Assembly (NCBI RefSeq): GCF_000478605.2
Contig: NZ_ASHX02000001.1
Location: forward strand, 3,511,895-3,575,894
Direction: 5' to 3'
DNA: 64,000 bases
Origin: Streptomyces thermolilacinus SPC6
GTDB lineage: Bacteria; Actinomycetota; Actinomycetes; Streptomycetales; Streptomycetaceae
Shown: in pieces, positions 32,994 to 43,620 of the stretch
Layout of the letters: each line of letters begins with the position of its first letter
How positions within the stretch are numbered: the stretch's first letter is position 1
Notes under the pieces: generated by a model
Database searches by the model: none
What the model was told of the DNA's origin: nothing
Seen by the model: the letters and a program-made list of their open reading frames with translations, nothing else
Made by a program: the position numbers and the translations under genes

Positions 32994-33129
32994 CCCCGGA
33001 AGCACCCCTCCCCCTCCCGTTCCCGGGTCCCGTTCGCGGGGCGATGCGGCACACTGGAGAGCTGGCCGCGTCCCGGAGCCGTAGGGATCGGAGCCGTGCA
33101 GGACGGGGCCGTAGGGAAAGGGTGACCGC

Positions 33130-34773
33130 GTGAACGGACCGCTGATCGTCCAGAGCGACAAGACGCTGCTGCTCGAAGTCGACCACGAGCGGGCGGACGC
33201 CTGCCGCCGCGCCATCGCGCCGTTCGCCGAGCTGGAGCGGGCGCCCGAGCACATCCACACGTACCGGGTCACGCCGCTCGGCCTGTGGAACGCGCGGGCC
33301 GCGGGCCACGACGCCGAGCAGGTCGTGGACGCGCTGGTCGAGTTCTCCAGGTACCCGGTGCCGCACGCGCTGCTGGTGGACGTCGCGGAGTCGATGGCCC
33401 GGTACGGGCGGCTCACCCTCAGCAAGCACCCCGTGCACGGGCTTGTCCTCACCAGCACCGACCGGCCCGTCCTGGAGGAGGTGCTCCGGTCGAAGCGGAT
33501 CAAGCCGCTGGTCGGTGAGCGCATCGACCCGGACACGGTCGCCGTGCACCCCTCGGAGCGCGGACAGATCAAGCAGACCCTCCTCAAGCTGGGCTGGCCC
33601 GCCGAGGACCTCGCCGGGTACGTGGACGGGGAGGCCCACCGCATCGACCTGGACGAGGCGGGCTGGGCGCTGCGCCCGTACCAGCAGCAGGCCGTCGAGG
33701 GCTTCTGGCACGGCGGGTCGGGTGTCGTGGTGCTGCCGTGCGGCGCGGGCAAGACCCTCGTCGGGGCGGGCGCCATGGCGAAGGCGAAGGCGACGACGCT
33801 GATCCTGGTCACCAACACGGTGTCGGCCCGGCAGTGGAAGCACGAGCTGGTGAAGCGGACGTCGCTCACCGAGGACGAGATCGGCGAGTACTCCGGTACG
33901 CGCAAGGAGATCCGCCCGGTCACCATCGCCACGTACCAGGTGCTGACGACCAAGCGGAAGGGCGTCTACCCGCACCTGGAGCTGTTCGACTCCCGCGACT
34001 GGGGCCTCATCGTCTACGACGAGGTGCACCTGCTGCCCGCGCCGGTGTTCAAGTTCACCGCCGACCTCCAGGCGCGGCGCCGCCTCGGCCTGACCGCGAC
34101 GCTGGTGCGGGAGGACGGCCGCGAGTCGGACGTGTTCTCGCTGATCGGCCCGAAGCGGTTCGACGCGCCGTGGAAGGAGATCGAGGCGCAGGGGTACATC
34201 GCGCCCGCCGACTGCGTGGAGGTCCGCGTGGACCTCACCGAGTCGGAGCGGCTGGCGTACGCGACGGCGGAGGCGGAGGAGAAGTACCGCTTCTGCGCGA
34301 CGACCGACACGAAGCGGCGGGTCACCGAGGCGATCGTCCGGAAGTTCGCGGGCCAGCAGATCCTGGTGATCGGCCAGTACATCGACCAGCTGGACGAGCT
34401 GGGCGAACACCTCGGGGCGCCCGTGATCAAGGGAGAGACGTCGAACGCGCAGCGGGAGAAGCTGTTCGACGCGTTCCGCAACGGCGAGATCAGCGTGCTG
34501 GTCGTGTCGAAGGTCGCGAACTTCTCCATCGACCTGCCGGAGGCGACGGTCGCGATCCAGGTGTCGGGCACGTTCGGCTCCCGCCAGGAGGAGGCGCAGC
34601 GCCTCGGCCGGGTGCTGCGCCCGAAGTCGGACGGGCACCAGGCGCACTTCTACTCGGTGGTGGCCCGCGACACGATCGACCAGGACTTCGCGGCCCACCG
34701 CCAGCGCTTCCTGGCGGAACAGGGCTACGCGTACCGCATCATGGACGCGAGCGACCTGCTGAGCGAGGCGTAA
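33130..34773 (+). CDS. XPB-type DNA helicase
   Basis: 547 residues, superfamily 2. An N-terminal XPB/Ssl2-N-like domain (1-170) precedes the helicase core: Walker A CGAGKT (Lys208), DEVH box (297-300), TATLVREDGRE with the RED motif typical of XPB, and motif VI in QEEAQRLGRVLRP. Bacterial XPB unwinds 3'-5' and is thought to act in DNA repair. The GTG start follows a GGGAAAGGG purine tract. A partner gene carrying a separate XPB-N-like/WYL protein lies 10 kb further on. Confidence 0.95.
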   Translation: MNGPLIVQSDKTLLLEVDHERADACRRAIAPFAELERAPEHIHTYRVTPLGLWNARAAGHDAEQVVDALVEFSRYPVPHALLVDVAESMARYGRLTLSKHPVHGLVLTSTDRPVLEEVLRSKRIKPLVGERIDPDTVAVHPSERGQIKQTLLKLGWPAEDLAGYVDGEAHRIDLDEAGWALRPYQQQAVEGFWHGGSGVVVLPCGAGKTLVGAGAMAKAKATTLILVTNTVSARQWKHELVKRTSLTEDEIGEYSGTRKEIRPVTIATYQVLTTKRKGVYPHLELFDSRDWGLIVYDEVHLLPAPVFKFTADLQARRRLGLTATLVREDGRESDVFSLIGPKRFDAPWKEIEAQGYIAPADCVEVRVDLTESERLAYATAEAEEKYRFCATTDTKRRVTEAIVRKFAGQQILVIGQYIDQLDELGEHLGAPVIKGETSNAQREKLFDAFRNGEISVLVVSKVANFSIDLPEATVAIQVSGTFGSRQEEAQRLGRVLRPKSDGHQAHFYSVVARDTIDQDFAAHRQRFLAEQGYAYRIMDASDLLSEA

Positions 34774-34807
34774 GCCCGACGCGGGCGGCTCGACCGCCCT
34801 GGCGGGC

Positions 34808-35008
34808 TCAGCGTCGCCTGATCCCTGCCGCGTCCGCGTCGTAGTCGCCCAGGACGGCGACGCCGAACGCCGCCGTCGCGAAGACCCGCACCGCGTGCAG
34901 CGCGCCGCCGAGCCGCGACGCGCGCGTCGCGGGCGTCGTGGCGCCGGGCGCCTGCGGGACGCGGGCGCGGGGGAAACGGGCCGTGGGGGTGAGGGGCGTT
35001 GAGTTCAT
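34808..35008 (-). CDS. Small hypothetical protein
   Basis: 66 residues. A Thr/Pro/Arg-rich start is followed by ALHAVRVFATAAFGVAVLGD, an amphipathic or weakly hydrophobic helix, and an Arg-rich end. I recall similar short streptomycete proteins with an RAVRVFAGAAFSVVVLG core, so it may be real. The ribosome site (GGAGG) is unusually close to ATG; a start 36 bases upstream is possible. Function unknown. Confidence 0.45.
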   Translation of the reverse strand: MNSTPLTPTARFPRARVPQAPGATTPATRASRLGGALHAVRVFATAAFGVAVLGDYDADAAGIRRR

Positions 35009-35225
35009 GCCTCCATGCCGGTGCCCGGAGCACCCGGCTCTCATCGCCTTGCGGACGGAACTCCCGCCGGTCCGCGTACGACTCCAGGCATACGGCGTCC
35101 CCTACGGGGCGTACGCGTCGGGTACCGGTCGGCATCCCGGACGGCGGCCGCCCCCCGGCGGGATGCCGGACGTCCTCACCGCGCCGACGGCCCCCGCCGC
35201 CCCGCCCGCGACGGCGGCGGGCCGG

Positions 35226-36050
35226 TCAGTCGGCGGGGCGGAACAGCCGGTCGCCCCTGGCGGCGAGGGCCAGGACGCCGACGTGGACGGCGGCGAGCGC
35301 CAGGAGCGCCACCACGCCCGGCGCTCCCGTCCCCGGCGACGGCTCTCTCGTCCACAGGTAGAGGGAGTACTGCGCCTCCTCCTGGAGGCGCAGCCATGCG
35401 GCCACCCACGTCTGCGGGTGCAGCGGGGTGATGCCGTCGATGCCGACAACCGGCGCGAGTACGATCACCGGCCCCAGAGCGCCGGCCATCGTCGCGACGG
35501 TCCGTCGGGTGAGGGCGGCCGCCGTGAACGCGACCGCGACGAAGAGGGCCTGAACCACCAGGGACCTGGCCACGGCCAGCGCGGCCGCCCCCCAGCCGGG
35601 GCCGTCGCTCGCGGCGAACCCCGTGACTCCGGCGGCCGTCCGTCCCGCGACGAGCAGGACGGCGGCGAGGACGACCGTGAACGCGGCCGTCAGCAGCAGG
35701 GCGACCGCCGCCTTCAGAGCGATCATCCGGGCCCGTCCCGGCCGGCTCGCCAGCAGGGACGGCCACATGCCGGACTCGCACTCGACCGCGTACAGTGCGC
35801 CGGCCAGCGCGGCGGCGAGGACGAGACCGACGAAGGTGCCGGAGTGCTGGGCCGCCGCGTACAGGGCCCCCGCCGGGTCGGCGATGTACGTGGCGGGCGC
35901 GTCGTCCCTGAAGTGCCGGTGGGCGTTCCGGTAGCCGTACAGCCCCATCCCCGCGGCCACCAGTACGGCGCCGACCGCCGTGAGGAGGACGACCGGGGAC
36001 AGGACGGCCTTGCGCAGCTCGGCGTACCAGCAACTGAGCCACCCGGTCAT
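35226..36050 (-). CDS. ABC-2 type permease, second membrane subunit
   Basis: 274 residues. Six membrane helices in the ABC-2 layout: an amphipathic lead (WYAELRKAVLSP), a helix at about 18-36, a long outer loop, then five helices. It begins inside the stop codon of the previous permease (ATGA overlap), so it is translated with it. Together with the neighbouring permease and ATPase it forms a complete exporter. Substrate inferred only from context. Confidence 0.88.
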   Translation of the reverse strand: MTGWLSCWYAELRKAVLSPVVLLTAVGAVLVAAGMGLYGYRNAHRHFRDDAPATYIADPAGALYAAAQHSGTFVGLVLAAALAGALYAVECESGMWPSLLASRPGRARMIALKAAVALLLTAAFTVVLAAVLLVAGRTAAGVTGFAASDGPGWGAAALAVARSLVVQALFVAVAFTAAALTRRTVATMAGALGPVIVLAPVVGIDGITPLHPQTWVAAWLRLQEEAQYSLYLWTREPSPGTGAPGVVALLALAAVHVGVLALAARGDRLFRPAD

Positions 36051-37021
36051 GTGACCTCGTTCCCGCGCCCGGCGGCGCGCATGATCCACCGGATCCCCAG
36101 GGCGGTGATGAGCACGGTCGGCAGGGCGCGGACAGCAAGGGGGACGGGGCTGCCGGGCTCCGGACCCCACCAGACGTTCCACAGGACGTCGCCGGGGTGG
36201 AAGGCCATCACGTCGGCGACGATGCCGCCGGGCAGCCAGCCCCACAGCCCGGCGGCGCCCGAGCCGAGCATGAGGAGGACGAGCACGGCCCCGGAGCGCG
36301 CGATCCCGCCGGCCTGGTTGCGCGCCAGGGCGGTGAGCGCGACGGCGATGACGCTCCAGACGGCTGTGACGACCAGGGCGCCGCCCCAGAGGCGCAGCCC
36401 GTGGAGCAGGTCCTCGCCCGGTGGGAGGTGGAACGCGTGGAGCGGGTAGTCCGAGCGCCCCTTCACCAGGCCGAACACGGCCACGGCCGCACCTGCGCAG
36501 CACAGGGCCGTGGCCGTGGTGAGCCACAGCGCGGTGGCCTTGGCGAGGATGTGCGTACGGGTGCGCGGGTCGGCCAGCAGGAGGTTCCCGGCGGTCCGGT
36601 TGTCGTACTCGGCGCCCATCGACTGCGCGGCGAGAAGGAGCACGACCACGAGCCCGGGGAAGGAGGCGAAGGCCTGCGCTGCCCAGCCGAAGGCGCCGGG
36701 CACGGTCTGCGCCCGGGCGGCCTCGGCGGCCTTCTCCCGTGAGTCGGCCACCCATTCCTCGGTGCTCCGCCGCTCCATCTCCCCGATTCCGCGGCAGTAT
36801 TCGGGCCCAAGCTTCGGATTGAGCTCCAGACAGCTCCGGTACGACTCGCCGCTCTCGATGTTCCGCAGATTCTTGTGGGCCTGGTTCACGTTGCCCGACC
36901 AGTAGTCCTGGGCGTAGAACGCCGTCGTCACACAGCCGACGGTCAGGATCGCGAACAGCAGGAGCGTCAACGGGCGCAGGGCGGTCTTGCGCCACTCCGC
37001 GCGCACGTGCCAGATCGTCAC
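36047..37021 (-). CDS. ABC-2 type permease, first membrane subunit
   Basis: 324 residues. It starts IWHVRAEWRKTALRPLTLLL and has one helix, a large outer loop (about 35-110) with two cysteines (RSCLELN, EYCRG), then five helices. The GTG start overlaps the TGA of the ATPase by four bases. The length and extracellular loop match ABC-2 permeases that export peptides or give self-protection. Confidence 0.88.
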   Translation of the reverse strand: MTIWHVRAEWRKTALRPLTLLLFAILTVGCVTTAFYAQDYWSGNVNQAHKNLRNIESGESYRSCLELNPKLGPEYCRGIGEMERRSTEEWVADSREKAAEAARAQTVPGAFGWAAQAFASFPGLVVVLLLAAQSMGAEYDNRTAGNLLLADPRTRTHILAKATALWLTTATALCCAGAAVAVFGLVKGRSDYPLHAFHLPPGEDLLHGLRLWGGALVVTAVWSVIAVALTALARNQAGGIARSGAVLVLLMLGSGAAGLWGWLPGGIVADVMAFHPGDVLWNVWWGPEPGSPVPLAVRALPTVLITALGIRWIMRAAGRGNEVT

Positions 37022-37761
37022 CAGGACCCCTTCTGCCCTGTGATCCGGAAGAACCAGTCCTCCAGCGACTCGGCCCCGCCCAGGCCGATCTCGTCGAGTG
37101 CCCCGCTGGCGACGACGGTGCCGCGGTCCATGACCACGACCCGGTCGCAGATCCGCTGCACCTCGTCGAGCTGGTGGCTGGAGATTAGGACGGCGGTACC
37201 GCTGTCCGCTTCCCGCCGGATCAGCTCGCGGACCATGACGACGGCGTGCGGGTCCAGCGCGTTGGTCGGTTCGTCGAGGACCAGCAGGCGCGGTTCGCGC
37301 ATCAGGGCCGCCGCGAGGGCGAGGCGCTGGCGCATTCCCTGCGAGTAGGCGCGGATGCTCTTCCGGGCCTCGCCCTCCAGGCCGACGCGTCGGAGTGCGG
37401 CGAGCGGCTCCCCCCGGTCCGGCAGGCCGGAGGAGTTCAGCAGGCTGCGCAGCTGGGCGGGCCCGGTCATCCACCGGTAGAACGCGGGCGTGTCCAGGGC
37501 GGCACCGACCTGCCGGGCGACGCCGGGTGTGTACGGCGGGTGCTCGCCCAGCACTCGCACGGACCCCGCCGTCGGCTTGACCAGCCCGCACACCATGCGC
37601 ATGAGGGTCGTCTTCCCGGCCCCGTTGGCACCGAGCAGCCCGACCACCTCACCGGGCGCCACGTCCAGTGTCACGTCCGAGACGGCGGCCTGCGAACCGT
37701 ACGTCTTGCTGACGGAGCGGCAGGCCAGCACGGCCTGCCGCTCCTCGTCGTGGAACATCAC
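37018..37761 (-). CDS. ABC transporter ATPase (BcrA/CcmA type)
   Basis: 247 residues. Walker A GANGAGKT (44-51), signature SQGMRQRLALA (about 139-149), Walker B LLVLDEPTNALD, and the switch His in LISSHQLDE. It powers the two permeases encoded directly downstream with overlapping codons. ATPases of this type drive efflux of antimicrobial peptides or antibiotics. The gene starts 12 bases after the stop of the small secreted protein. Confidence 0.93.
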   Translation of the reverse strand: MMFHDEERQAVLACRSVSKTYGSQAAVSDVTLDVAPGEVVGLLGANGAGKTTLMRMVCGLVKPTAGSVRVLGEHPPYTPGVARQVGAALDTPAFYRWMTGPAQLRSLLNSSGLPDRGEPLAALRRVGLEGEARKSIRAYSQGMRQRLALAAALMREPRLLVLDEPTNALDPHAVVMVRELIRREADSGTAVLISSHQLDEVQRICDRVVVMDRGTVVASGALDEIGLGGAESLEDWFFRITGQKGSW

Positions 37762-37773
37762 GAAATGACTGCC

Positions 37774-38199
37774 TCAGCTGGTCGTGTAGGCGGTGCGGCC
37801 AGTCAAGTCCATCGGGCAGTTACCGCCCGGCGTGAGACAGTCCGTAGGGACCGTCCAGAGCTTCCAGTAGAACTTCCCGGACGAGGTCTTGACCCAGGAC
37901 TTCGTCTGGTCTGTGAGGGAGCAGTCGAAGTACAGACTCCCGATCTTGTCATCGGGCGCCCAGGAGACATCCCGCCACAGCTCGTACGACACGGTGCCAC
38001 CCCGGCCGCCACCAGTTCGTGTGCAGGAAGTCTGCGTCTGTGTGTTCCCCCCGAGCGAATCCCAGCGGCGCGACTCACTGCCTTTGCTGAACGCGCCCGC
38101 TGTCCAGGAAAAGGAATGGCTCGCCGCTATCGCCGTGGGCGCGCCAATAGCCAAGGTTGTGATGGCGGCTCCAAGCGTTGCCGCCTTCCTCCACTTCAC
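37774..38199 (-). CDS. Small secreted protein heading the ABC operon
   Basis: 141 residues. Signal peptide: KWRKA, then the hydrophobic TLGAAITTLAIGAPTAIA, with cleavage near IAA-SHS. The mature part is about 115 residues, rich in Ser, Thr, Trp and Gly, with four Cys (TSCTRT, YFDCSL, PTDCLT, GNCPMD) that could form two disulphides. GTG at 38199 follows GGGGGGA. I do not recognise the family; it is not lactococcin 972. Its place 12 bases ahead of an ABC exporter suggests a secreted bioactive or signal protein with its transporter or immunity pump. Confidence 0.7.
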   Translation of the reverse strand: MKWRKAATLGAAITTLAIGAPTAIAASHSFSWTAGAFSKGSESRRWDSLGGNTQTQTSCTRTGGGRGGTVSYELWRDVSWAPDDKIGSLYFDCSLTDQTKSWVKTSSGKFYWKLWTVPTDCLTPGGNCPMDLTGRTAYTTS

Positions 38200-38500
38200 G
38201 AGGTAATCCCCCCCCAAATGATCTTCCGTTCGACTGCAGGCATCATGGCGCTGGCGACGACGCCGGACCAACTGGGTGATCAGTGATCGGCTGGAATACT
38301 CGCTATCGAGCTGACATGTGGCGCATTACCGTGCCCGCCCTGCGGCGGCGCCGAGGCAGGCGCCCGGAAAACCGTTCGCGCGTCCCGCCGGGCCCTCATT
38401 ACAATCTCCCGCTTGCCCGCCTCCCCGTCGGGAGTGCCGCCCTCCGGTCGGAAACCGGACGGCCCTCAACGACCACCGTTCCAGCGCCGGAGGCACCGCC
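38200..38500. other. Divergent promoter gap
   Basis: 300 bases between the small secreted protein (minus strand) and helR (plus strand). No gene is supported. I searched it by eye for the GGGGCTTGC-type half sites of the rifamycin-associated element that precede some helR genes and found none. Confidence 0.4.
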
Positions 38501-40531
38501 ATGTCCACGACCGACACCGATCCCCTCGGCCGCGAGCGCGCGCACCTCGCCGCGTCCCGGGCCGCGCTGCGCGCCATGCGGGAGGACGTGGAAGCGCTGG
38601 ACATCCGTGACGTCACCGCCAACTGGGTGAACGCCGCGGTCCTCCAGCGCCAGATCGACGACCGCGTCAAGGCCCTCGCCGACCTGGCCCACACGCCCCT
38701 GTTCTTCGGGCGGCTCGACTACCTGCCCACCACCCAGGAGGGCCAGCGGTTCTACATCGGACGGCGGCACGTCCACGACGCGCACGGCGACCCGATGGTC
38801 ATCGACTGGCGCGCCCCCGTGTCGCAGCCGTTCTACCGGGCGTCCAGGCGCGACCCGCAGGACGTGCGGCTGCGGCGCCGGTTCGGGTACACGGGCGGCG
38901 ACCTCACCGCGTACGAGGACGAACACCTCACCGACCCCGCCGAGGCCGAGACCACCAGCCGCCTCCTCCAGCAGGAGATCGAGCGGCCCCGCGTCGGGCC
39001 CATGCGGGACATCGTCGCCACGATCCAGCCCGAGCAGGACGAGATCGTCCGCAGCGGCCTGTCCGGCACGGTGTGCGTGCAGGGCGGCCCCGGCACCGGA
39101 AAGACCGCCGTCGGCCTGCACCGGGTGGCGTACCTGCTGTACGCGCACCGCGAGCGCCTGGCCCGTACCGGCACGCTCGTCATCGGGCCGAACCGGTCGT
39201 TCCTCCGCTACATCGAGCAGGTCCTGCCCGCCCTCGGCGAGCTGGAGGTGAAGCAGGCCACCGTCGACGACCTCGTCGGCGCCCATGTCGAGGTGCGCGG
39301 CACGGACGACGCGACGGCCGCCGTCGTGAAGGGCGACGCCCGCATGGCGGAGGTCCTGCGCCGCGCGGTCCGCTCGCACGTCACGCTGCCGACCGAGCCG
39401 GTCGTCGTGGTGCGCGGTTCGCGGCGGTGGCGGATTCCCGCGTACGAGGTTGAGGAGATCGTCACCGAGCTCCTCGCCCGCGACATGCGGTACGGCGCCG
39501 CCCGCGACGCCCTGCCGCAGCGCATCGCGCACGCGGTGCTGGTGCGGATGGAGGCCACCGGGGAGGCGCCCGACGACCGGGTGCAGGACCAGGTGGCGCG
39601 CAACGCGGCGGTGAAGGCGGCCGTCAAGGCGATCTGGCCGCCCGTGGACCCGGCGAAACTGGTGCTGCGGCTGCTGTCCGACGCGGAGTTCCTCGCGGAG
39701 CACGCGGACGGGCTGCTGGACGAGGACGAGCAGAAGGCCATCCTGTGGGCCAGGCCGCCCAGGAGCGTGAAGTCCGCGAAGTGGTCCCCCGCCGACGCCG
39801 TACTGGTCGACGAGGCCGCCGACCTGGTCGCCCGCACGCACTCGCTGGGCCATGTCGTGCTGGACGAGGCGCAGGACCTGTCGCCGATGCAGTACCGCGC
39901 GGTGGGGCGCCGCTGCTCGACCGGTTCCGCGACCGTGCTGGGCGACCTGGCGCAGGGCACCACGCCGTGGGCGACGCGCAGCTGGGCGGAGGCGCTGCGG
40001 CACCTGGGCAAGCCGGACGCGCTGGTGGAGGAGCTGACGGCCGGTTTCCGCGTGCCGCGCGACGTGATCGCGTATGCCTCCCGGCTCCTCCCGCACATCG
40101 CGCCCGGCCTGGCGGAGGTCCGCTCGGTCCGCGAGAACCCGGGCTCGCTGGAGGTGCGGCGGGTGGACCCGGAGCGGCGGGACGCGGACGTCGTCGCGGC
40201 GTGCGCGGAGTTCCTGGGCCGGGAGGGCTCCATCGGGCTGATCGCCGCCGACCCGCGCCTGCCCGCCCTGGAGGAGGCGCTGCGGGCGGCGGGCGTGCCG
40301 TACCTGTCGCCGGGCGAGGAGACGACCCCGGACGTACGGCTCACGCTGGTCCCGGCGTCGCTCGCGAAGGGCCTGGAGTACGACTACGTGGTCCTCGACG
40401 AGCCCGCCGCCGTGGTGGCAGCCGAGCCCGACGACCGCACGGGTCTGCGCCGCCTGTACGTGGCCCTGACCAGGGCGGTGTCCGGCCTGAAGGTCCTCCA
40501 CGCGACCCCCCTGCCGGAGGAGCTGACCTGA
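38501..40531 (+). CDS. helR: RNA polymerase-recycling ATPase, HelR/HelD type
   Basis: 676 residues. A UvrD-like superfamily 1 ATPase: Walker A GGPGTGKT (Lys201), Walker B VVLDEAQDLSP, and late motifs LAKGLEYDYVVLDEP and RLYVALTRA. The N-terminal 170 residues (MSTTDTDPLGRERAHLAASR, PLFFGRLDY, IDWRAPVSQPFYRAS) mark the HelD/HelR family, which frees RNA polymerase from stalled complexes. HelR forms also displace rifamycin and give tolerance. GGAGGCACC precedes ATG. The split between HelD and HelR here is by general resemblance. Confidence 0.85.
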   Translation: MSTTDTDPLGRERAHLAASRAALRAMREDVEALDIRDVTANWVNAAVLQRQIDDRVKALADLAHTPLFFGRLDYLPTTQEGQRFYIGRRHVHDAHGDPMVIDWRAPVSQPFYRASRRDPQDVRLRRRFGYTGGDLTAYEDEHLTDPAEAETTSRLLQQEIERPRVGPMRDIVATIQPEQDEIVRSGLSGTVCVQGGPGTGKTAVGLHRVAYLLYAHRERLARTGTLVIGPNRSFLRYIEQVLPALGELEVKQATVDDLVGAHVEVRGTDDATAAVVKGDARMAEVLRRAVRSHVTLPTEPVVVVRGSRRWRIPAYEVEEIVTELLARDMRYGAARDALPQRIAHAVLVRMEATGEAPDDRVQDQVARNAAVKAAVKAIWPPVDPAKLVLRLLSDAEFLAEHADGLLDEDEQKAILWARPPRSVKSAKWSPADAVLVDEAADLVARTHSLGHVVLDEAQDLSPMQYRAVGRRCSTGSATVLGDLAQGTTPWATRSWAEALRHLGKPDALVEELTAGFRVPRDVIAYASRLLPHIAPGLAEVRSVRENPGSLEVRRVDPERRDADVVAACAEFLGREGSIGLIAADPRLPALEEALRAAGVPYLSPGEETTPDVRLTLVPASLAKGLEYDYVVLDEPAAVVAAEPDDRTGLRRLYVALTRAVSGLKVLHATPLPEELT

Positions 40532-40665
40532 ACGGCACGATGCGCACCTGCGGGCCCGCGCTCGTCCTGGCGAGTGGGTGCCCACCTGCGGGCCCTTGCG
40601 GTCCCACCCCCTGGACCGGCGAGTGAGGCGAAGGGGCGCGCCTGTGTCGTGAGGGAGTGGGGGTG

Positions 40666-40686
40666 CCCCCGGACGAAGTCTGGGGG
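40666..40686. repeat. Interspersed hairpin element, common Streptomyces type
   Basis: CCCCCGGAC-GAA-GTCTGGGGG, a nine-pair stem with one G-T pair and a three-base loop, lies between helR and the iron transporter operon. I recall this GTGCCCCCGGACGAAGTCTG-type sequence as a frequent intergenic element in Streptomyces genomes. It may also end transcription. Confidence 0.65.
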
Positions 40687-40769
40687 AGCGCGGAGGCCCT
40701 GAGGAACGAAGGGCTGAGCACGGTCGACCGTCGGCACAGGCCTTCAGCGCCCCGGAGCCGAACCGAGCC

Positions 40770-41579
40770 CTAAGAAAGCGCAGGCGCCGCCGGGATCACC
40801 AGGGGCGAGCCCGTCAGGGGGTCCGGGATGACCGTGGCCTCCAGGCCGAAGACCTCGCGTACGAGTTCCTCCGTGACGACCTCGCCCGGCTGTCCCGCCG
40901 CCACGATCCGCCCGGCCTTCATGGCGACCAGGTGGTCGGCGTACCGGGCGGCCTGGTTCAGGTCGTGGAGGACGACGGCGACGGTGCGCCCCCGGGTGCG
41001 GTTGAGGCGGCGCACCAGGTCGAGGACCTCCACCTGGTGCGCGATGTCCAGGTACGTCGTCGGCTCGTCCAGGAGCAGCAGCTCCGTCTCCTGGGCGAGG
41101 GCCATCGCGATCCAGACGCGCTGGCGCTGTCCGCCGGACAGCTCGTCGACGGACCGGTCGGCGAGGTCGGCGACGTTGGTGCGGGCCATCGCGTCCTGGA
41201 CGGCCCGCTCGTCCTCGTCCGACCACTGCCGCCACCACGCCTGGTGCGGCTGGCGCCCGCGCGCCACCAGGTCCGCGACGGTGATCGCCTCGGGTGCGAC
41301 GGGTGTCTGCGGCAGCAGGCCCACCACCTGGGCGATCTTCTTCGTCGGGAGGGACGCCAGGTCCCGCCCGTCCAGCAGGACCGCCCCGCCGCGCGGTTTC
41401 AGCAGCCGCCCCAGGGCGCGCAGGGTCGTGGACTTGCCGCACGCGTTGGGCCCGACGATCACGGTGACCTTGCCGTCGGGTATCGCGAGGTCCAGCTCGT
41501 CGACGACGGTGCGGTCCTCGTACGCGAGGGTCAGCCCCCGCGCCTGGAGCCTGCCGCTCGCGGTACCCACGTCGCTCAT
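40770..41579 (-). CDS. Iron-siderophore ABC transporter ATPase (FecE/FepC type)
   Basis: 269 residues. Walker [10 protein letters not shown] (about 41-49), Q-loop [10 protein letters not shown], signature [17 protein letters not shown], Walker [14 protein letters not shown], all as in ferric-siderophore ATPases. Its ATG overlaps the stop of the upstream permease. It is the third gene of an iron-regulated operon and supplies energy to the two FecCD subunits. Confidence 0.95.
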
Positions 41580-42616
41580 GCCTTCCCTCCACCCGTGCGG
41601 CCCCGCACGATCAGCCAGATCAGGTACGGCGCGCCGACCGCCGCCGTCAGGACGCCCACCGGCAGCTCGGTCGGCGAGAACAGCCGCCGCGCCAGCAGAT
41701 CCGCCAGTACGACGACGAGCGCGCCCATCAGGGCGGACCCGAGCAGCGGGATCTGCGCGCCCCGCGTGAGGCGCCGCGCGATCTGCGGGGCCAGCAGCGC
41801 CACGAAGTCCACGGGCCCCGCCGCGCCGGTCGCGAGCGACGCCAGGACGACGCCGAGCAGCACCAGGCCGAGCCGCACCCGGCCGAGCGGCACGCCCAGC
41901 GCGGTCGCGGTGTCGTCGTCCATCGACACGGTCCGCTGCGCCCGCGCCGCCCACAGCACGGCCGGTACGAGCGCGAGGAGCGCCCAGCCGAGTGGCGCCG
42001 CCTCGTCCCAGCCGCGCCCGTTGAGGGAGCCGGTCATCCAGATCTGCGCCTGCTGGGCGACCAGGTAGTCGCCCTTCGTCATCATCAGGGTCGTCACGGA
42101 CCGCAGGGCGATGGCGAAGCCGATGCCGATCAGCACGAACCGGGTGGCGTGCAGCCCGCCGCGCCACGCGAAGACGTACACGAGGAGCGCCGCGGCGATC
42201 CCGCCGACGACGGACAGGTACGGCAGCACGGCGAACGACGTCACGCCGAACGTCATCGCGGTGACCGTCAGCGCGCCCGCGCCCTGGCTGATGCCGATGA
42301 TGTCGGGGCTGGCCAGCGGGTTGCGGGCGACGGTCTGGATGAGCGCCCCGGCCACGCCGAACGCCGCGCCGACCAGCAGCCCGATCACCAGGCGCGGCAG
42401 CCGTAGCGTGCCCACCACCAGGTCGGCGGGGGACGGCTGCCCGGTCAGCACGCGCAGCACCTCGCCGGGCGCCACGAACTCCTCGCCGACGCAGAGGTAC
42501 GCCACCGACACCGAGGCCAGGAGCAGCGCGAGCCCCGCGGCGACGGCGACGGCCCGCCGGTGGACCAGGAACGAGGCGCCCCGGCCCCGTATGACCGCGT
42601 ATCCCGCAGCCGTCAC
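41576..42616 (-). CDS. Iron-siderophore ABC permease, FecCD family, second subunit
   Basis: 346 residues, about nine or ten membrane helices. FecCD marks: [39 protein letters not shown], and [20 protein letters not shown] for ATPase coupling. The GTG start overlaps the previous stop by four bases. Confidence 0.94.
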
Positions 42617-43620
42617 GCCGGTACCGCCTTCCTCCGTACGAGCGCCACCAGGAACGGCACGCCGATGAGCGCGGTCATCACGCCCGCGGGGACCTCGCCC
42701 GGCGGGAAGACGATCCGCCCGGCCACGTCCGCGGCCAGCAGCATCACGGGCCCCACGAGCGCCGCCATGGGCAGCAGCCAGCGGTGGTCGGCGCCGACGA
42801 GGGCGCGGACGATGTGCGGGACGGCGAGGCCGACGAACGCGATGGGCCCGGCCGCCGCGACGGCCGCCCCAGTCAGGACGGTCGCCCCGGCCCCGGCGGC
42901 GACGCGGACGAGCGCGACGCGCTGGCCGAGGCCCTTCGCCACGTCCTCGCCGAGCGCCAGCGCGTCCAGGCCGCGCGCGACGGCCACCACCAGGGCGAGG
43001 CCGGCCAGCAGGAACGGCCAGGTCTGCGCGACGATCACGGCGTCCCGCCCGGCGACGGACCCGGCCTGCCAGAACCGGAACTCGTCCAGCGCGGCGGCCT
43101 TCGTCGTCAGCACCCCGGTCGTCAGGGACAGCAGCAGCGCGTTGATCGCGGCGCCGCCGAGCGCGAGCTTCACGGGCGTGGCGCCGCCCCGTCCGCTGGA
43201 CGCGATGGCGTACACGGCGACCGACGCGGCGGCGGCGCCCGCGAAGGCGAACCACACGTACCCGCTGAGCGTGTGCACCCCGGCGAACGCGATGGCCAGG
43301 ACGACACCGACCGACGCGCCCTGGCTGATGCCGAGGATGCCGGGGTCGGCGATGGGGTTGCGGGTGATGCCCTGGAGGGCGGTCCCGGCGACGGCGAGGG
43401 CCGCGCCGACGAGGACCGCGATCAGGGTGCGCGGCAGCCGCAGCTCCAGGACGACATCGCCCTCGCCGCTGCGGCCCGCGCCGTGCAGCAGCGCGTCGAA
43501 CACGACGGACGGGGCGATGGGGCGGGCGCCGACCGCGAGGCTCAGCACGACGGCGACGGCGAGGGCGGCGACGGCCGCGGCGGTCGCGAGGACACGTCGG
43601 GAACGCACAGCGGCAGCCAA
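42613..43620 (-). CDS. Iron-siderophore ABC permease, FecCD family, first subunit
   Basis: 335 residues, about nine or ten helices. [38 protein letters not shown] and [20 protein letters not shown] are the family marks. It is the operon's first gene, 45 bases downstream of an iron box. The start is TTG at 43620 or GTG four codons later; neither has a good ribosome site. No periplasmic-type binding lipoprotein is encoded here, so it must be elsewhere. Confidence 0.93.

Follow-up and report, generated by a model that had tools for sequence, protein, structure and literature searches.

Small secreted cysteine proteins paired with ABC transporters in Streptomyces: a probable antibacterial family with self-protection

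A four-gene cassette of Streptomyces thermolilacinus SPC6, located in the 64,000-nucleotide stretch of DNA analysed here (the window), can be read with moderate confidence as encoding a putative secreted bacteriocin-like protein together with an ABC immunity transporter. Relatives of the secreted protein nearly always keep this pairing and therefore probably represent, as far as sequences can tell, an unrecognised antibacterial protein family with self-protection. The preliminary description of the locus had suggested a bacteriocin or signal system with self-protection transporters, in which the secreted protein heads an exporter operon; the bacteriocin-like and self-protecting part of that proposal seems to be the best reading, whereas the term exporter is disfavoured.

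The cassette and its secreted protein

The operon comprises the genes of the secreted protein, the ATPase, permease 1 and permease 2, in this order and all on the minus strand. The secreted protein (38199-37774, minus strand, GTG start, stop codon at 37776-37774) has 141 aa, and its gene is separated by 12 bases from that of an ABC ATPase of 247 aa (37761-37018, minus strand, GTG start), which matches Pfam ABC_tran with 98.3 bits. A GTGA overlap (37021-37018) couples the ATPase gene to that of an ABC-2-like permease of 324 aa and about six transmembrane (TM) segments (37021-36047, minus strand), which is coupled in turn by an ATGA overlap (36050-36047) to that of a second ABC-2-like permease of 274 aa and about seven TM segments (36050-35226, minus strand), both TM numbers being hydropathy counts. 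Thus, the tight four-gene layout of the preliminary description, with its short gap, two overlaps and two ABC-2-like permeases, was found in full in the sequence; the interval it gave, 37018-38199, holds the first two genes, and the operon extends to 35226. The permeases match ABC2_membrane_2 and ABC2_membrane_4 below the curated cut-off (best 25.9 and 20.8 vs 27.2), and permease 1 contains, after its first TM segment, a long loop with two Cys residues, whose side of the membrane we infer.

Comparison with the cassette of genome G290 by the Nei–Gojobori method gave dN/dS values of 0.19 for the secreted protein, 0.12 for the ATPase, and 0.35 and 0.38 for the permeases. The four genes are thus under purifying selection relative to G290 and are real genes, and diversifying selection was not seen in this one pair. 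Within 33000-41000, the segment of lowest GC content lies in the secreted gene (63.0%, the other segments having 64.7-77.7%). A second ABC operon lies nearby (40770-43548, minus strand), with an ATPase and two permeases of 8-9 TM segments; by its look, we take it to be an ordinary importer unrelated to the cassette.

Up to about residue 25, the secreted protein is a Sec-type signal peptide; the mature part of about 115 aa has the conserved pattern ESRRW...C...PD...C, and Cys stand at positions 59, 93, 121, and 128. In an alignment of 32 family members with start codons chosen by hand (A1), W46, C59, and C93 are invariant, and A26, G40, E42, S43, P82, D83, G108, and Y111 are almost so, while an extra pair of Cys near the C terminus is common to the window's protein and its G290 and G327 relatives. 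All 32 N termini show positive charge and then a hydrophobic stretch, A-x-A occurs in 31 of 32, and a lipobox in 0 of 32, all according to a simple rule of our own (not SignalP) applied from the hand-chosen starts; the members look Sec-exported and not like lipoproteins.

The statement that this secreted protein falls in no known family was borne out, as neither Pfam nor NCBIfam has a family for it: the window's protein has no match in Pfam up to E 1 and none in NCBIfam, and the 32 members have no credible match to a known family in either library and match no solute-binding family. Matches of four of the 32 to TIGR01480 (best 0.00059) were rejected as probable signal-peptide similarity. Sequence searches of the PDB returned best E-values of only 0.14 and 0.057. 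The family is unrecognised in the family libraries and literature searched, and in the latter nothing was recognised as describing it.

The window's protein and the L042 member were modelled with AlphaFold2 from the same 32 sequences in differing order; the two models have a mean pLDDT of 83 each and agree on an eight-strand beta-sandwich. The PDB structures matched by both models with Foldseek and VIA are tied, generic beta-sandwich folds, the best by VIA (Z 9.1 and 8.9) including an endospore appendage protein, PirA, Pgp3, CBM6, and GOLD domains. With Foldseek, the first model had three matches at E ≤ 0.001, to a phage cement protein and a SEC14-like protein and with low TM-scores; the second had none at this threshold. 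Being tied and generic, these matches were set aside as evidence of function, and the predicted fold suggests no target. The matches listed do not include a lactococcin 972 structure, which excludes nothing.

Linkage, transporter lineages and mobility

A single-sequence search matched 32 of 392 Streptomyces genomes, the window's own included; matches other than those in the own genome and G290 (about 72-73%) are 29-40% identical. With the A1 profile, members were found in at least 73 of the 392 Streptomyces genomes and in at least 15 of the 394 genomes searched from the class, seven of these lying outside Streptomyces in seven genera; both counts are lower bounds, since ten candidates were scored per genome. 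The median pairwise identity among members is 28%, and clustering at 40% identity yields 35 clusters. Tandem paralogues occur, with two to four copies per locus and some on the opposite strand; the secreted gene is present three times at L123 and four times at L137, in the latter on both strands. The secreted family is patchy, diverging, partly plasmid-borne, and without a library model.

The neighbourhoods of 103 distinct members from 78 genomes, three of them scoring below 35 bits, were scanned with profiles for the family and for ABC ATPases. In 92 of the 103, an ABC ATPase gene follows downstream within 2.4 kb and on the same strand, and in 99 one lies within 4 kb on either strand, whereas a random position would meet the same-strand criterion in about 2.4% of cases, a rough rate derived from a density of 131 ABC domains per 6.45 Mb. 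The four members without an ABC gene within 4 kb are L148, L167, L176, and L134, the last a very weak member. Among the 92, 47 show a gap of at most 200 nt and the order secreted protein–ATPase–permease, 37 have the ATPase about 1.9-2.3 kb away in the order secreted protein–permease–permease–ATPase, seven are intermediate, having either several secreted copies in tandem or a wider gap, and one is of another kind. A member near an ABC gene is present in 32 of the 35 clusters, and all eight loci outside Streptomyces (L126-L133, of which L133 is a weak member) have an ATPase downstream. L061 (G036) was excluded as false, since it does not match the family profile, and weak or partial matches in G145:C13, G364, G359 (two), G203:C14, G271:C74, and G387 were left out; those of G100 and G052 (internal stop), L316 and L317, both have an ABC gene and stand outside the 103. 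The search for homologues beside the transporter, which the preliminary description had proposed as a check, thus came out in favour of linkage: homologues lie nearly always beside ABC genes and match no family, so that neither homologues that never co-occur with ABC genes nor a strong match to a housekeeping family was found.

The commoner cassettes have a different transporter from that of the window. Both of the commoner-type transporters scanned carry a DUF7224 (PF23866) permease, and DUF7224 matches occur at many further loci of the secreted family, whereas the window's cassette has permeases of another, ABC-2-like lineage; thus, one secreted family is served by two transporter lineages, and the window's cassette is one rare variant within a larger modular group. 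Its ATPase subgroup (window, G290, G327, G330, G054, and G135) carries the motif 'ALD[T/A]PAF', and in the window's ATPase Asp replaces the Q-loop Gln (ALDTPAFYRWMTG), as it does in six of six cassettes of the subgroup; nearly all other cassettes have Gln, and the excerpt of L165 stops short of this position. Transporters of the window's lineage were found in five of 150 genomes, those of G038 and G113 without a detectable secreted gene.

DUF7224 is present in 57 of 199 Streptomyces genomes, and no paper with this word was found in the literature searched. The 35 DUF7224 loci read comprise 33 without a listed family member and two with damaged members, and two weak matches (G000:C1:5651042 and G052:C1:7130076) were left out. 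For 31 of them with a clear transporter start, that is, excluding L285 and L309 (ATPase not found) and L316 and L317 (damaged members), a small Sec-type ORF lies directly upstream at 11 according to a rule that recovers 82 of 93 known members and also fires on 26 of 293 control genes; three more were recognised by eye (L302, L308, and L313), and at 17 of the 31 neither rule nor inspection found an upstream secreted gene. Such DUF7224 'orphans' could be pumps of an unrelated kind, or the detection rule may have missed their secreted genes. Diverged family members precede the transporter at L283, L299, L305, and L306 (E 1.6e-4 to 5.8e-6). Secreted proteins of about 110 aa resembling 'GCRGYWY..GHGYC' were seen upstream of DUF7224 at L297, L302, L303, L307, L308, and L311, that of L303 being a borderline family match (E 0.009). 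Other small secreted Cys proteins precede DUF7224-like transporters at L310, L313, L314, and L315, the DUF7224 match of the last three being below the curated cut-off.

The window's cassette occupies a slot between two conserved genes that we take to encode an XPB-like helicase (33130-34773, plus strand) and a HelD/UvrD-like helicase (38501-40531, plus strand); one edge is marked by a small ORF (34808-35044, minus strand), of which relatives have a counterpart. The HelD orthologue region was read in 23 of 24 other genomes of the genus, G017 (66% match) being left out, and the cassette is absent from the slot in all 23: the XPB gene lies within 1.5 kb of the HelD orthologue in 17, and the slot holds other genes or a longer gap, without a match to the window's ATPase, in six. 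The sequence read next to the cassettes of G290, G327, G330, G054, G038, and G135 contains none of the window's flank genes (search at E 1e-20). A search for the flanks at 143 loci brought up one, L290 (G129:C1:4801000-4807500) of another species, where a DUF7224 transporter sits in exactly the window's slot, between HelD and the small ORF and XPB; a secreted gene was not found there, and insertions may recur at the HelD/XPB slot. The window's own genome has a second cassette at about G000:C1:2913216-2916417 (about 2717-5918 of L283, G000:C1:2910500-2917300), in which an ATPase, a DUF7224 permease, and a second permease follow, in that order, a diverged member of the secreted family (E 5.9e-6). 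As for transposon-like ends, only short imperfect repeats were found.

Two other members, used as queries, matched 9 and 11 plasmid records, 18 different ones in all, and the window's secreted protein (P0001) had no match. At 12 of the 15 Streptomyces plasmid loci opened, out of these 18 records, which may overlap the genome set, the pairing with ABC genes is repeated. Those three that lack an ABC gene nearby comprise one truncated gene on a circular plasmid, one gene close to the end of a 36-kb plasmid, and one match without annotation. Where a gene is annotated at the match (14 of the opened records), it bears the name 'hypothetical protein', and so do the permeases. One plasmid cassette (L249, NZ_CP108144.1 44447-51779) lies beside two ScbR-family autoregulator genes, and a regulatory link to gamma-butyrolactone signalling is possible for it. 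With the cassette absent from the slot in the relatives read, different flanks elsewhere, and copies of the family on plasmids, such cassettes are accessory and mobile.

Known systems and the proposed function

The cassette shares with lactococcin 972-type systems a small Sec-type secreted protein directly followed by ABC transporter genes, and the lactococcin 972-type protein is a beta-sandwich. In the lcn972 operon, orf2-orf3 have been described as immunity genes and as possibly coding for an ABC transporter (PMC4055356), and secretion of streptococcin B (scbABC) is reported to be consistent with Sec (PMC11796350). Further traits of the lactococcin 972 family are binding of lipid II and inhibition of the septum. 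Homology was rejected: none of the nine families matched by the 32 members at E ≤ 1 is PF09683, the lactococcin 972 family, and an hhalign comparison of A1 with 12 PF09683 proteins of Streptomyces (alignment A3, several of them partial at the N terminus) gave a probability of 4.5% over nine columns. PF09683 was found in 10 of 101 Streptomyces genomes (L226-L236). At four of the 11 Streptomyces PF09683 loci read, the order is secreted gene, permease of about 700 aa, and ATPase; these loci have that single permease, whereas the cassettes described here have two separate permeases of ABC-2-like or DUF7224 type.

A second likeness is to LanFEG and BcrAB, which also join an ATPase with two ABC-2 permeases in one operon, although the window's permeases fall below the Pfam cut-offs; LanFEG consists of an ATPase plus two short ABC-2 permeases. 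Among NCBIfam models, the window's ATPase is nearest to drrA (171.2 bits) and to the lantibiotic protection model TIGR03740 (170.4 bits), but it fails the curated cut-offs of both (312.45 and 309.75, respectively). In LanF, another acidic residue, Glu, replaces the Q-loop Gln, and the window's subgroup has Asp. LanFEG act on peptides, whereas the partner in the cassette is a protein predicted to be folded, and no lanthipeptide-synthesis gene was recognised within the four-gene operon. LanFEG transporters protect by releasing the peptide into the supernatant (PMC7038271). Binding-protein-dependent importers, whose secreted partner is a lipoprotein or a solute-binding protein, differ from the cassette, in whose family the 32 members show neither a lipobox nor a match to a solute-binding family. 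Overall, the cassette seems reasonably likely to resemble lactococcin 972 systems and LanFEG in its working, while belonging by sequence to neither.

A Sec-type partner, repeated linkage, many-to-many pairing, tandem copies, transporters for which no partner was detected, and patchy and partly plasmid-borne spread together form the pattern of bacteriocin–immunity modules. In the proposed mechanism, the secreted protein would leave the cell by Sec, be stabilised outside by disulfides, and bind an envelope target of related actinobacteria, which it would inhibit, while the ATPase and the two permeases would pull the protein off the membrane or the target and so protect the producer, as LanFEG do with peptides. 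The transporters without a secreted gene (G038, G113, and 17 of the 31 DUF7224 loci) would fit the orphan immunity that such a system predicts. Against it speak the generic fold, the four of 103 members and three of 15 plasmid loci without ABC genes, and purifying selection, and the bacteriocin-like reading is held, with these points counted, at a fair degree of confidence.

Tight operon coupling could point to export, and bacteriocin operons often carry an exporter; the ABC-2 transporter might itself secrete the protein, as the phrase dedicated exporter in the preliminary description implied. The Sec-type signal peptides (A-x-A present in all but one of the 32 aligned members) and the occurrence of both transporter lineages without a detectable cargo gene fit such a role badly; moreover, the ATPase and permeases have no Pfam match to the C39 peptidase domain that one type of bacteriocin ABC exporter carries, and export by this transporter appears very unlikely. 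The divergence of the secreted protein runs parallel to that of the ATPase (Mantel r 0.79, a value that none of 2000 permutations reached), in a test that counted tandem copies sharing an ATPase separately and for which shared ancestry alone can give such an r. This correlation would also be expected if the linkage reflected the vertical descent of one operon and nothing functional; two transporter lineages, two gene orders, differing surroundings, and plasmid copies make mere hitch-hiking the most improbable of the explanations considered. The same parallel divergence and the very tight linkage would suit a non-toxic accessory subunit or ligand-catcher, that is, a binding protein, chaperone, or sensor for another, expelled compound. 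However, the family lacks a lipobox, has up to four copies per locus with some on the opposite strand, and is replaced by other secreted proteins, or by none found, in the same position; multiple copies and alternative partners fit a binding subunit badly, and such a role is rather unlikely.

A signal or developmental function, in which a matrix or signalling factor would be handled or sensed by the ABC transporter during mycelial growth, would agree with a secreted, Cys-containing protein, with the origin of most loci from Streptomyces (also the most sampled genus), and with the two ScbR-family regulator genes beside one plasmid cassette. Nevertheless, the distribution is patchy and includes plasmids, no recurring regulator was seen by eye beside 30 listed cassettes, transporters occur without the secreted gene, and identity among members is low, so that such a function is unlikely, if slightly less so than that of an accessory subunit. 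Under the bacteriocin-like reading, the cassettes might be modular conflict systems that combine several secreted Cys families with at least two lineages of immunity transporter, move between chromosomal slots and plasmids, and leave persisting orphans, making up a large unrecognised actinobacterial class; for this broader proposal, the case is close to evenly balanced and it is offered tentatively.

If the proposed function is correct, about one-fifth of Streptomyces genomes (at least 73 of 392) would encode a protein-based competition system that family libraries have missed. The secreted protein would add a new scaffold to the Sec-exported bacteriocins, and a function would be suggested for DUF7224. 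Moreover, the recognition of a folded protein by an ABC immunity transporter would become directly testable, since natural pairs of secreted protein and transporter, as well as natural orphans, are in hand.
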